From Clostridia bacterium (lineage in GTDB: Bacteria > Bacillota > Clostridia > Oscillospirales > Acutalibacteraceae): DNA of 40,248 bases. The stretch covers positions 1-40,248 of the forward strand of contig JAFXDE010000015.1 of NCBI GenBank assembly GCA_017516315.1, read 5' to 3'. The position numbers were made by a program, and so were the translations under genes. This document shows positions 6,822 to 10,343 of the stretch, piece by piece. The notes below the pieces were generated by a model. It was not told where the DNA came from. It ran no database searches and saw only the letters and a list, made by a program, of their open reading frames with translations. How positions within the stretch are numbered: the stretch's first letter is position 1; each line of letters begins with the position of its first letter.

Positions 6822-6876
6822 GGAAGAAACTACACTGGTTGATACAATGCAACCGTTATAGAGAGTGTTGCATTAA

Positions 6877-7005
6877 GTGAGTTTCTCCTTGCTGAAGCTT
6901 GAATTCGATGAGGTGCTGTGGCATACAACCGTTGAGAATGTTACGGTGTATGGGGATGGGAGGATGGTGTGGAGGTTCAGGAATGGGTGTGAGGTTGCGA
7001 TGTAA
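6877..7005 (+). pseudogene. C-terminal remnant of a large serine recombinase
   Basis: From 6877 to the TAA at 7003-7005 one frame reads LEFDEVLWHTTVENVTVY, GDGRMVWRFRNGCEVAM. This is the typical end of large serine (resolvase/invertase type) recombinases: an FD..LW..LV..V.V turn, then a DGR..F.F.NG strand. A stop (TAA 6874-6876) closes the frame just upstream. The catalytic domain and its Ser are absent, so this is a relic, probably of the element that brought in or neighboured the island. Confidence 0.6.
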
Positions 7006-7064
7006 CGACAAATATAAATAATGTTTATATTTGGTTATGCTTAATAGTTAGTATTTGGTATTTG

Positions 7065-7093
7065 TTGTTTGTATAAGTTTTTTATGATATAAT
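7065..7093 (+). promoter_or_regulatory. Promoter for the island operon
   Basis: TTGTTT (7065-7070), a 17-base spacer and TATAAT (7088-7093) with an extended -10 TGA. The ATG at 7092 overlaps this -10 box, which rules it out as the start of the next gene. Confidence 0.65.
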
Positions 7094-7124
7094 GTTATTG
7101 AAAATTCGCAAAAGGAGTAAAACT

Positions 7125-8054
7125 ATGGATAGAAATGTAATATATTCAGAATTAATGCAAATGCAAAGCGCAGATGGTATCTCTTTGATAGGTCCAAAAG
7201 ATATGAAAAATATCAAATTGCTTCCTGATTATAATTTAGAATATTTTTATATTTACGCAAAAGCTTATATCTCAAAAAATGATAAAGAAGTTGCCAAAAA
7301 TTATGTGAGCATTGTAAATAGGTTTTTGACACATATATCAAAGTTTAATTGCGATTTAAAAGATGTCAATCAGGAACTCGTTAACAGTTTTTTTGAAACA
7401 AACAAGAACCATAGTCAATCAACCATTAACAATTACAAGATTTGGCTTAGCAACTTTTTCTCATTCTTTTCCTTATTAAAAAAAATAGATTTAAGCCAAT
7501 TCAAAGGAAAAATAGAAAGTAAAGACAATAAAATAATCTCAGCAGAAAAATTATCAAAAGCTAAAGAAGTGTATAGAAAGATTCGTAGAGAATCCGACAA
7601 AGACAGTGAAGATTACAAAACAGCTACTAAGAGTTTATTTGTTCTTGAAATGTTGTTCTCTGTACCTTTGTCTATGAATGACATTGGTAGATTTCATAAA
7701 GAAAAAGGTAAATACAGCAAAAACAAAATCTATTTTGAAGGAGAAACCTATGATGCCCCTGCTTCATTGATTAGTCTTATTGAAGAAATGTATGTGACAA
7801 ACTTGTTCTTTGAGACCAATGACATCACAACAACAGTAAATCGTATGAAAAAAGAACTATCCGATTACGATATGGGAGCACTAACCGCTAAAAAGAAAGA
7901 TGGAGGAGCAAAAGCGACTAGAGACGCTATTTTTTGGGCTTGTCCACAATGTGGCGAAAAGTATGAAGCTGTGGCTGAAAATTGGTGTGTAAAACAATAC
8001 ACATCTAACGGAGAAAATTGGGTAGTTTGTAGGGAGAACTGTGCTAATGGGTAA
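7125..8054 (+). CDS. Integrase-like protein with SAM-like core-binding domain, no visible catalytic residues, C-terminal zinc ribbon
   Basis: 309 aa from ATG 7125 (AAAGGAG at 7111-7117). Residues of about 36-118 look like the phage-integrase SAM-like core-binding domain: EYFYIYAKAYIS, NRFLTHISKF, STINNYKIWLSNFFSFF. Residues of about 165-250 resemble the first part of a tyrosine-recombinase catalytic domain (TATKSLFVLEMLFSVPLSMN), but the GLR arginine is replaced, and no later H-x-x-R box or Tyr nucleophile is visible. Instead there is a Cys cluster (C273-x2-C276, C288, C302-x3-C306) that looks like a zinc ribbon. I infer a DNA-binding protein derived from an integrase. The stop overlaps the nuclease start by 8 bases, implying translational coupling. 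Confidence 0.7.
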   Translation: MDRNVIYSELMQMQSADGISLIGPKDMKNIKLLPDYNLEYFYIYAKAYISKNDKEVAKNYVSIVNRFLTHISKFNCDLKDVNQELVNSFFETNKNHSQSTINNYKIWLSNFFSFFSLLKKIDLSQFKGKIESKDNKIISAEKLSKAKEVYRKIRRESDKDSEDYKTATKSLFVLEMLFSVPLSMNDIGRFHKEKGKYSKNKIYFEGETYDAPASLISLIEEMYVTNLFFETNDITTTVNRMKKELSDYDMGALTAKKKDGGAKATRDAIFWACPQCGEKYEAVAENWCVKQYTSNGENWVVCRENCANG

Positions 8055-8610
8055 AGTTGTATCTTTGATTGATTTTGTTCCTTATTTTCCATATATAGAA
8101 ACATCATCCGATAACTCTTTACAAAACGAAACATATGATTGGGTTGAAAAACAAAAAGACTTAGGTAACAAAGGTGAAAAAATAGTTGAATTGTATTTAA
8201 AAGAAAAGCATAATAGCACAAAGGTAACAAAACAAAAAGATGATAGTGCAGGTTATGATTTAGATGTAGATATTCCTGGTGTAGTGCCATATATAGAAGT
8301 TAAAACTACATCTGAAAGAAAAAAACATTTCTTAGTTTCGTACAACGAAATTAAAGTAGCAAAAGAAAAAGGTTCGGATTATCAAATTTATTTCGTATGC
8401 CTAAAAAATAAAGTCGAAGGAACTATTTATGTTATAGAAAACCCATTTGTTACATTAGGTTTAAACAAGGTTTTTGAAACAACAAATTCTAACAATATAG
8501 CAAGATTAAAAATAGGCTCAATTGAGGTTGAGATTTTAAATTTTGAAAACTTTAAAAGAATCGATGATGAAATAAGTAGAGCTGTTATAAAACAAGTTAT
8601 GGATGATTAA
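8047..8610 (+). CDS. DUF3883-like PD-(D/E)XK nuclease domain protein
   Basis: 187 aa from ATG 8047 (AGGGAG at 8031-8036). A GTG at 8041 is possible, but it lies only four bases from that site. The C-terminal two thirds match the DUF3883/Mrr-like restriction-endonuclease fold: GNKGEKIVELYLKEK (Glu44), DSAGYDLDV (Asp71), PYIEVKTTS (Glu84, Lys86), then a FLVSYNEIKVAKEKG..YQIYFV helix and strand. Asp71, Glu84 and Lys86 fit the D-(D/E)-x-K active site. Family members cut DNA and often sit in restriction or defence proteins, usually fused to other domains; here the domain is nearly alone. The overlap with the integrase-like gene suggests that the two work together, perhaps one as DNA reader and one as cutter (inference). 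Confidence 0.75.
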   Translation: MGKVVSLIDFVPYFPYIETSSDNSLQNETYDWVEKQKDLGNKGEKIVELYLKEKHNSTKVTKQKDDSAGYDLDVDIPGVVPYIEVKTTSERKKHFLVSYNEIKVAKEKGSDYQIYFVCLKNKVEGTIYVIENPFVTLGLNKVFETTNSNNIARLKIGSIEVEILNFENFKRIDDEISRAVIKQVMDD

Positions 8611-8631
8611 AAAGGTTTAATTCAACCTTTT
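8610..8631 (+). terminator. Terminator of the island operon
   Basis: AAAAGGTT (8610-8617), a 6-base loop and AACCTTTT (8624-8631) directly after the nuclease stop codon. Confidence 0.6.
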
Positions 8632-8701
8632 AACGATACCCCACAATTTAACGATTACCCACCCTCAAATCAACATAACTACACACTATACACATAAAAA
8701 C

Positions 8702-8742
8702 AGCGTTGCAGACGGTAGCACATCTACCCAAACTGCAACGCT
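8702..8742. other. Nested hairpin between nuclease and tRNA-Ser
   Basis: AGCGTTGCAG (8702-8711) pairs perfectly with CTGCAACGCT (8733-8742), and GGTAG/CTACC pair inside the loop. The tail TTTGTATTATA is only weakly T-rich. It may be a back-up terminator or part of the island end. The rest of 8632-8791 shows no gene. Confidence 0.5.
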
Positions 8743-8791
8743 TTGTATTATAACCCCTTATACTACAAGGGAAAATCGCTTTAAAATAACG

Positions 8792-8827
8792 ATACCACCG
8801 TCGATAATATTGTATCAACAGTGGTAT
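8792..8827 (-). terminator. Hairpin after tRNA-Ser, likely its terminator
   Basis: ATACCAC (8792-8798) pairs with GTGGTAT (8821-8827), with GATA/TATC inside. On the minus strand it is followed by TTATTTT. The right-hand inverted repeat of the candidate island lies inside this hairpin. Confidence 0.5.
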
Positions 8828-8833
8828 TGATTT

Positions 8834-8926
8834 TGGCGGAGAGCAAGGGATTCGAACCCTCGAAGCCGTTTTAGCGACTTACACGATTTCCAATCGTGCT
8901 CCTTCGACCAGCTCGGACAACTCTCC
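8834..8926 (-). tRNA. tRNA-Ser (anticodon GGA)
   Basis: On the minus strand the acceptor arm GGAGAGT pairs with GCTCTCC (last pair T-G) and is followed by G and an encoded CCA. The anticodon loop TTGGAAA is closed by a CGA/TCG stem and gives GGA, reading UCC/UCU. A long variable arm and the T loop GGTTCGAATCC are class II serine features. Length is 93 bases with CCA. Its 3' end faces the AT-rich island. Confidence 0.95.
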
Positions 8927-8992
8927 ATAACAACTTTGACATTATAACCTATTGAAACGGAAAAATCAAGTGATTTTCAAAAATAATTTAAA

Positions 8993-9021
8993 TTGCCGCC
9001 GAAAATTTTATCCGACGGCAA
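8993..9021 (-). terminator. Terminator after the FAD oxidoreductase gene
   Basis: TTGCCGCCG (8993-9001) pairs with CGACGGCAA (9013-9021) with one G-U in the minus-strand RNA, 12 bases past the stop. Confidence 0.6.
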
Positions 9022-9032
9022 GGTTTTTATCA

Positions 9033-10343
9033 TCAGAGAGCCTTATATTTTTCTGCCCAGGCATTTACAGCCTCCTCGCTGTATATTTCAGGCATTTTTC
9101 TGCACACTGAGTCCATAAAGGGGAGGGTGCGGAAATTTTTTACCAAGGGCGGAATGAGCTTCAGAAGGGGAGGACAAACGGCGATAATGTGCTTTATCTG
9201 CTTGGCTGAAAGATTTATGGGCGCACCGTCTGCTACTGCGATAAGCTCAGGAGTGAGTATTTCCTTTTCGAGAAGATAATCTACTTGCTCACCCTTGACG
9301 AAATTGAAAAAGTCCTTGAGCTTGTCGATGATTATAAGATCCTTTGCGTAGTGGTGGAAATATTCGTACTGATAGGGCCATAGAGACCTTTTATCGTAGG
9401 TGCCGACAGCCTTCATTACGGTTTCGGCTAAAATTTTGCCTGCATTCATGCTGAGGATTATACCGCTTCCGTTAAGAGGCACGGTCATACCTGCGCTGTC
9501 ACCGATAGCGGCATAGCCGTCGCAGACGAGAAGAGGAAGCATACGCTTTATGGGAAGGTCGATAAAGGTACCGCCGCGGAGAATCTCCTGACCGATGAAA
9601 GGAAACTCCTTTCTGAATGCGTCAAGAGAGGAATTTACCTCTTCGGCCGTAAGGGGACCTGCCGAGCCGAATTTTCCTATAAGAATGTCCACATATTTTT
9701 CGTCCGTAACTGTCCAACCAATGCCGGGAATGTTTCGGTTAAAGAGATTTATGAGATAAGGAGGGTCAGTTTTTTCACCTGTAAGATTTTTGAAATATGC
9801 TCTGTAAACGTGGAAAATTCCGGTGCTTTCCGGCTCTCTTTCTATTCCGCAGACAGAGGGAAGCTGTGTACGGACGGGAGAGTACATACCTGCCGCGTCG
9901 ATTACGAGGTCACAGTAAAGAGCGTATATTCTCTCGCTGTCACGGAGATTAAGCCCCTTTACCTTTGCTCCCTCGGTTACGGGAGAGAGGATTTCCGTGT
10001 CAAAGATAAATTTAACTCCTGCCTCCTCAGCCAAAGAGATAAGATAGGCGATAAGGAGCTTTCTGTCCATACAGATAGAGCCCTCGCCTACGGGAACACG
10101 GAGCATTACCGTGGCCTTGGGATTACGGAAGCCCTGAGGCATACCTGCAAAGAAGGTGCTTTCATCGGGACGGTCGATTCCTGAACGGTCGAAGGCATCC
10201 AGACTAAGCCAATCGTGCCAGTCATGGCCGATGGTGTCGGGATTTTCCTTTTCTACTACGGTGATGTCATAGCCGTTTTTAGCTAAATGTATGGCAGCTA
10301 CGAGACCGCCGTGACCGGCGCCTGCTACTAAAATCTTACTCAT
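9033..10343 (-). CDS. FAD-dependent oxidoreductase (geranylgeranyl reductase / FAD monooxygenase-like)
   Basis: 436 aa. The N-terminal Rossmann motif ILVAGAGHGGLVAAIHLAKNG (GxGxxG) is followed by VVEKE, the acidic residue that binds the FAD ribose. Later come LVIDAAGMYSPVR and YAAIGDSAGMTVPLNGSGI, the GD motif that contacts the FAD phosphate. The order fits the family of geranylgeranyl reductases, halogenases and aromatic monooxygenases. The substrate is not evident, and no prenyl-lipid or aromatic genes are nearby. AAGGAG precedes the ATG. The 233-base leader upstream contains hairpins (for example 10452-10484, CCGTA..TACGG) but no riboswitch that I recognise. Confidence 0.75.
   Translation of the reverse strand: MSKILVAGAGHGGLVAAIHLAKNGYDITVVEKENPDTIGHDWHDWLSLDAFDRSGIDRPDESTFFAGMPQGFRNPKATVMLRVPVGEGSICMDRKLLIAYLISLAEEAGVKFIFDTEILSPVTEGAKVKGLNLRDSERIYALYCDLVIDAAGMYSPVRTQLPSVCGIEREPESTGIFHVYRAYFKNLTGEKTDPPYLINLFNRNIPGIGWTVTDEKYVDILIGKFGSAGPLTAEEVNSSLDAFRKEFPFIGQEILRGGTFIDLPIKRMLPLLVCDGYAAIGDSAGMTVPLNGSGIILSMNAGKILAETVMKAVGTYDKRSLWPYQYEYFHHYAKDLIIIDKLKDFFNFVKGEQVDYLLEKEILTPELIAVADGAPINLSAKQIKHIIAVCPPLLKLIPPLVKNFRTLPFMDSVCRKMPEIYSEEAVNAWAEKYKAL

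Follow-up and report, generated by a model that had tools for sequence, protein, structure and literature searches.

A two-gene nuclease unit with a constant first gene

Analysis of a 40,248-nucleotide stretch of a Clostridia bacterium genome (hereafter the window; contig JAFXDE010000015.1 of GenBank assembly GCA_017516315.1) and of its relatives points to a two-gene unit, in which a constant first gene (gene 1) is followed by an overlapping second gene (gene 2) whose predicted nuclease domain varies, being of either the DUF3883 or the HNH type. Both nuclease domains are known, and we rate the pairing as a two-gene nuclease module whose effector can be exchanged; a description of this pair as a system was not found in the literature searched, in which subscription papers were mostly out of reach. 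The operon of the window is plausibly a member of such a module that is moved horizontally and serves restriction-like or abortive defence without linked methylation, a reading to which we give somewhat less than an even chance. The features on which the analysis draws are as follows.

7125-8054, plus strand: gene 1 (P0001), an open reading frame of 309 aa with a putative integrase-type core-binding domain and a C-terminal Cys ribbon; 38% identical to its relative P0003 over residues 1-308
7245-7469, plus strand: SAM-like core-binding region, roughly residues 41-115 of gene 1; sub-threshold in Pfam, with P0009 above the cut-off there
7941-8042, plus strand: C-terminal ribbon of gene 1, residues 273-306 (CPQCG...C..C), the best conserved part of the family
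8047-8054, plus strand: overlap of gene 1 and gene 2, 8 nt, equal in length to the overlap in L006
8047-8610, plus strand: gene 2 (P0002), 187 aa, a predicted DUF3883/NOV_C nuclease (PF13020, 3.4e-15) with D...E-x-K
8056-8100, plus strand: proposed docking peptide of gene 2, residues 4-18, similar to the start of the HNH partner protein in L006
8173-8418, plus strand: NOV_C domain of gene 2, residues 43-124
6889-7004, plus strand: recombinase-like remnant, seen in translation; 91% over 99 nt in L043
8598-8833, no strand assigned: stretch next to the tRNA, found again in other islands of the genus (9 of 30 fetched loci, one of them with only 34 nt)
8834-8926, minus strand: tRNA-Ser(GGA), whose 3' end carries a 19-nt core (8834-8852) that recurs nearby in other genomes

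The original prediction described an AT-rich two-gene operon with an 8-base overlap beside tRNA-Ser, equipped with its own promoter and terminator. Both open reading frames were found with their overlap, their G+C contents (31.5% in gene 1 and 27.3% in gene 2) are well below the 42.5% of the window, and tRNA-Ser(GGA) adjoins the operon. The promoter and the terminator did not hold up: promoter-like sites are no more numerous than in shuffled sequences (13 vs a mean of 10.8, sd 3.6), the nearest one on the plus strand upstream of 7125 ends at 7022 in the site scan, and the scan found no plus-strand terminator-like site downstream of 8610. A short palindrome was seen by eye just 3' of the gene 2 stop codon.

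Domains of gene 1

Gene 1 had been described as tyrosine-recombinase-like. The part of this claim with partial support is an N-terminal core-binding domain: P0001 matches integrase SAM-like core-binding domains below the Pfam threshold only (best 4e-4), while the match of P0009 to PF02899 (8e-6) is the one gene-1 match exceeding a Pfam cut-off, and P0003, P0005 and P0007 gave no Pfam match to this domain. A catalytic domain, even a degenerate one, was not seen, with no Pfam match to PF00589 in any of the five gene-1 proteins. The H-x-x-R motif is absent from P0001, P0005, P0007 and P0009, and the single H-x-x-R of P0003 (residue 233) appears chance-like and is without counterpart in the other four. 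The R...H-x-x-R...Y set of a normal active integrase is thus missing, in agreement with the predicted absence of catalytic residues. Because P0001 has no H-x-x-R and none of the five has PF00589, gene 1 is judged from its sequence to be no active recombinase, and one N-terminal domain weakly suggests a recombinase ancestry. Neither hhalign of gene 1 against three local integrases nor an HMM built from four local integrases produced a match.

The Cys4-type ribbon claimed for gene 1 is present and conserved in the family. In P0001 it consists of CPQCG at residue 273 followed by Cys 288, 302 and 306, and across the family (protein length 296-396 aa) it follows the C-terminal pattern CPxCG...C..C. 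It is the most conserved part of the protein, the last 45 residues being 78% identical between P0001 and P0003 as compared with 38% overall. A search of PDB sequences with the gene-1 profile was topped by a zinc-finger array, aligned to the ribbon (0.0016); P0009 reached an integrase core-binding domain with E = 2 only, and P0005 a TIR-like chain at 0.03. Over its full length gene 1 had no match that passed a family's curated cut-off (all five proteins against Pfam and PADLOC, P0001 also against PHROGs and NCBIfam). A weak match of P0001 to the MTase_II model of PADLOC (2.1e-5) did not recur in the four relatives.

We infer that gene 1 may bind DNA. The weak matches of P0001 include the core-binding domain of MrpR, the prophage SPbeta repressor, below threshold (0.026). 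MrpR is a recombinase-fold repressor without recombinase activity, in which the core-binding domain serves DNA binding (PMC10516654). MrpR has a full recombinase-like fold, whereas gene 1 carries a C-terminal Cys ribbon and is paired with a nuclease.

Gene 2 and the partner nucleases

The second gene had been called a DUF3883-like nuclease with an intact D..E-x-K set, and the domain and the residues of this description are confirmed. P0002 matches PF13020 with 56.3 bits against a cut-off of 22.1 (E 3.4e-15), and the D...E-x-K residues of the PD-(D/E)XK type (D...E-V-K in P0002) are kept in its relative P0010, which is 36% identical. A nuclease role of gene 2 is predicted from the domain together with these residues. 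DUF3883 was called a novel REase domain in a HEPN superfamily study (PMC3710099), and an archaeal survey groups it among presumed restriction enzymes (PMC10609329).

The partner in L006, P0004, is an HNH_2 nuclease (PF13391, 1.2e-13) that matches type II restriction models of PADLOC (6.2e-24 and 7.8e-17), and P0006 matches a type IV restriction model (3.8e-10). The DUF3883 partners match the C-terminal parts of TmtA and PDC-S36. Gene 2 proteins thus match parts of several PADLOC models, and the gene pair does not fit the models of any one system in PADLOC-DB 2.0.0, which catalogues neither the pair nor gene 1 as a system. In TmtA and PDC-S36 the DUF3883/NOV_C domain ends larger proteins, whereas gene 2 is small and stand-alone, with its own N-terminus, and is coupled to gene 1. 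Similarly, what the L006 and L072 partners share with HNH restriction enzymes (the HNH, type II and type IV models of PADLOC) is just the nuclease end of longer models; they lack the customary recognition part, and gene 1 stands alongside instead.

Members of the gene-1 family

A scan of the whole-genome collection with P0001 (41 pattern stretches, one relative) identified P0003 in Oscillospiraceae record SVJW01000012.1 (L006), where P0003 and the downstream gene P0004 overlap by exactly 8 nt and P0004 is HNH, not DUF3883. A ribbon-only model then gave P0005 (L072) and P0007 (L073), each overlapped by an HNH gene by 20 nt, and a refined model gave P0009 (L078), 31% identical to P0001 and overlapped by a DUF3883 gene by 14 nt. 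An overlapping nuclease (8-20 nt) therefore lies downstream of gene 1 in all five members, two of DUF3883 and three of HNH type. The proposed neighbourhood of the two genes is accordingly upheld for gene 1 and an overlapping nuclease (5/5), but for DUF3883 itself in just 2/5. Since the nuclease type varies, the unit is better described as a constant partner with an exchangeable nuclease than as an integrase with DUF3883.

P0001, P0003 and P0009 were accepted by sequence alone, and these three are all nuclease-coupled, with two folds among them. P0005 and P0007 first matched at 27.9 and 25.7 bits, and their adjacent nucleases aided acceptance, which makes their coupling partly circular. Eight further hits at 20.8-29.3 bits stand outside the member count. 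Three of them were rejected on inspection, G1432 as a 156-aa ribbon ORF without a nuclease partner of this kind, and G1067 and G1027 as unrelated two-ribbon proteins; the other five are G775, G820, G1347, G940 and G537.

The gene-1 family is rare within the collections searched. In partly overlapping genome samples, P0001 found 1 of 394 genomes of the order, its own, and P0002 found 2 of 98 relatives, its own and a weak 59-residue match in G042. Model A1 (P0001 and P0003) gave 3 of 398 phylum genomes (its own and the weak G775 and G820) and, in the family of L006's genome, 1 of 21, that genome itself. The ribbon model A2 hit 4 of 391 class genomes (its own, G1145, G1086 and G1092); the contig number and coordinates of G1145 equal those of L006's genome, so the two are probably identical. 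Search A4 returned 4 of 225 genomes in the order of G1092 (G1092, G1389 and the weak G1347 and G1432), and A6 returned four genomes among the 58 of G1086's order (G1086, G1067, G1027 and G940) and 2 of 343 phylum genomes (its own and the weak G537). The members come from differing families and orders among the taxa searched; G1086, G1092 and G1389 belong to the same class as the window's genome, and L006's genome probably does too, via G1145.

Eight scans of viral contigs showed no gene-1 relative. Plasmids held no match to P0001, P0003, P0005, P0007 or P0002; the HNH domain of P0004 matched 78 plasmid records, mostly over 60-80% of its length, and the 46-aa tail matched one, at E = 5. Phages gave no match to P0001 or P0009, two distant matches to P0002 in different settings, and 14 records for the 46-aa tail, all with E >= 4. 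The whole-genome, viral, plasmid and phage collections may omit records close to the window's own genome.

A shared N-terminus in two unrelated nucleases

The nuclease domains of P0002 and P0004 differ, and the likeness of the two proteins is confined to about the first 18 residues, which align at the same position with 9 identities in 18 (E = 4e-4 within this comparison). With the first three residues removed, because the gene overlap could explain their match, the score was reached by 1 of 2000 shuffles, a count uncorrected for the ten pairs compared. Of 60 bases aligned at the DNA level, 39 agree (13, 16 and 10 of the 20 at first, second and third codon positions), a pattern that points to a kept protein sequence rather than recent copying. 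P0002 and P0010 also match at their N-termini (5/2000), which may be ordinary homology as both are DUF3883. No match was found between P0004 and P0010 (1116/2000) or between P0006 and P0008 (496/2000), and five other N-terminal cross-comparisons gave 250 to 1817 of 2000. The shared N-terminus suggests a docking peptide; since the other pairs are mostly without a match, it is a good lead from one pair rather than an established feature of the family.

Genomic settings of the five copies

The pair occurs in mobile settings of several kinds. In L075 a TnsD/TniQ protein lies on one side of it and a Mu-type transposase on the other (PF15978, 5.7e-82; PF09299, 1.7e-9), a Tn7-like arrangement, and nearby is a gene which, by eye, we take to be glmS. 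L081 has a conjugation coupling protein and a topoisomerase around the pair. In L074 a ParA gene is near, along with ORFs recognised by eye that are presumably ParB-like and a full-length integrase. The copy in the window belongs to a tRNA-Ser island.

Defence genes stand beside two of the five copies. LmuA and LmuB of Lamassu directly adjoin the pair in L075 (PADLOC, best 1.3e-96 and 1.2e-174), and the pair itself matches neither. In L006 a UvrD helicase is beside the pair, and its best PADLOC matches are to GajB (1.4e-46), which may reflect general UvrD similarity. The defence link of the pair thereby gained partial support from its neighbour genes, and a defence activity is a prediction drawn from these contexts. 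A regular-expression scan of up to 8 kb around the five pairs, with less sequence covered at locus ends (4.7 kb at one flank of L076), revealed no methyltransferase motif in any neighbourhood; the one hit, in the window, was discarded as an FAD oxidoreductase. Separately, a protein-kinase-like ORF at 14443-16212 of L081, a few genes from P0009/P0010, matches the PD-T4-6 and Mads kinase models of PADLOC (up to 1.3e-37).

Proposed function and alternatives

In the defence reading favoured here, gene 1 would bind DNA and hold or direct the nuclease, perhaps by contact between its own ribbon tail and the short peptide at the N-terminus of gene 2. Together they would spare host DNA and cut upon meeting invading DNA; the trigger might be an infection signal, or DNA that is modified, replicating or recombining. 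Because no linked methyltransferase was seen, another way of sparing the host would be needed, such as sensing modified DNA, a DNA structure or an infection signal. In a more specific version, gene 1 would be a DNA sensor, derived from an integrase and ending in a zinc ribbon, that recruits interchangeable nucleases (PD-(D/E)XK or HNH) via an N-terminal docking peptide, so that the sensor lineage changed its weapon and kept the plug; we hold this version only tentatively and consider it rather doubtful. If it is true, gene 1 would be a natural adaptor for two unrelated nuclease folds, the family would illustrate effector swapping by defence systems without re-evolving recognition, and an integrase-type DNA-binding domain would have moved into defence, comparable to its use in the repressor MrpR.

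The main rival is a toxin-antitoxin system, in which gene 2 would be a toxic DNase and gene 1 a DNA-binding antitoxin and autorepressor that neutralises it, which would stabilise the mobile element. It fits the layout nearly as well, with two small overlapping genes, the first likely DNA-binding, in mobile settings. Usual antitoxins are smaller than the 296-396 aa of gene 1, however, and the HNH domain of P0004 is nearest to restriction enzymes and defence genes adjoin two of the five copies; we consider this account unlikely, though a serious contender. Panacea toxin-antitoxin networks likewise swap effectors behind a constant component in two-gene operons (PMC10440598); in contrast, no Panacea domain was found by Pfam in the five gene-1 members, and the effectors here are nucleases. 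The mobile settings, and the faint resemblance between P0001 and the core-binding domain of MrpR, would also suit a function for the mobile element itself, with gene 1 as a recombination accessory or regulator and gene 2 as a nuclease that aids spread or excludes rivals. But the surrounding elements differ in kind (Tn7-like, conjugative, tRNA island), which argues that the pair is cargo and not the machinery of one element, and leaves this alternative improbable.

A type II restriction system with its methyltransferase encoded elsewhere in the genome would agree with the type II matches of P0004 (6.2e-24, 7.8e-17), with the placing of DUF3883 among presumed restriction enzymes in the archaeal survey (PMC10609329) and with the weak MTase_II match of P0001, the last missing in the four relatives. 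Given that none of the five neighbourhoods showed a methyltransferase motif (up to 8 kb, regular-expression scan only), we regard such a system as very improbable. Least probable of all, in our assessment, is a decaying passenger that is presently functionless: the family is rare and island debris such as the recombinase remnant surrounds the operon, but neither frame is interrupted, the two genes still overlap, and the ribbon cysteines and nuclease residues are kept family-wide.

The tRNA-Ser(GGA) site

The original prediction placed the operon on a tRNA-linked island, and comparison of presence and absence at this tRNA agrees with a mobile gene pair. The operon stretch 7101-8597 matched none of 30 loci fetched from the tRNA region of the genus (picked for matching this region, some genomes contributing two), and gene 2 turned up in none of 33 further genomes searched within the genus, several of which are incomplete. 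Same-genus genomes without gene 2, together with scattered members elsewhere, are what is expected of a mobile gene pair. The tRNA and the adjoining oxidoreductase are conserved in G013, G016 and G032, and in G013 and G032 the island side holds other content. In 13 of the 30 loci (L039-L068) the 19-nt tRNA 3' core occurs once more close to the tRNA, often about 190 nt off, and these extra cores look like accumulated tandem insertions. The window has no second core that would mark the far (left) boundary of the island.

The remnant at 6889-7004 is presumably the 3' end of a recombinase gene, and its part 6889-6987 recurs in L043 (91%) and partly in L042 with different cargo alongside. We discarded 6889-8835 as a mobile cassette with two conserved ends, because the window has no second core, though the ends flank other cargo in L043. 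There (8195-9809), the cargo between the window's island-end segments includes a 269-aa frame with no Pfam or PADLOC match, which by eye resembles an HNH-type protein. The segment 8598-8833 contains an imperfect hairpin (GCGTTGCAG...CTGCAACGC), found also elsewhere in L043 (8195-8403 and 9853-9897), which might act as a terminator or mark the end of an element. By eye only, a short inverted similarity around TTGATACAAT flanks the operon at 6831-6848 and 8806-8827. On the same tRNA side in L039 (5033-16817), from a related genome, lies a cluster with several proteins of about 640 aa that by eye are radical-SAM-like.
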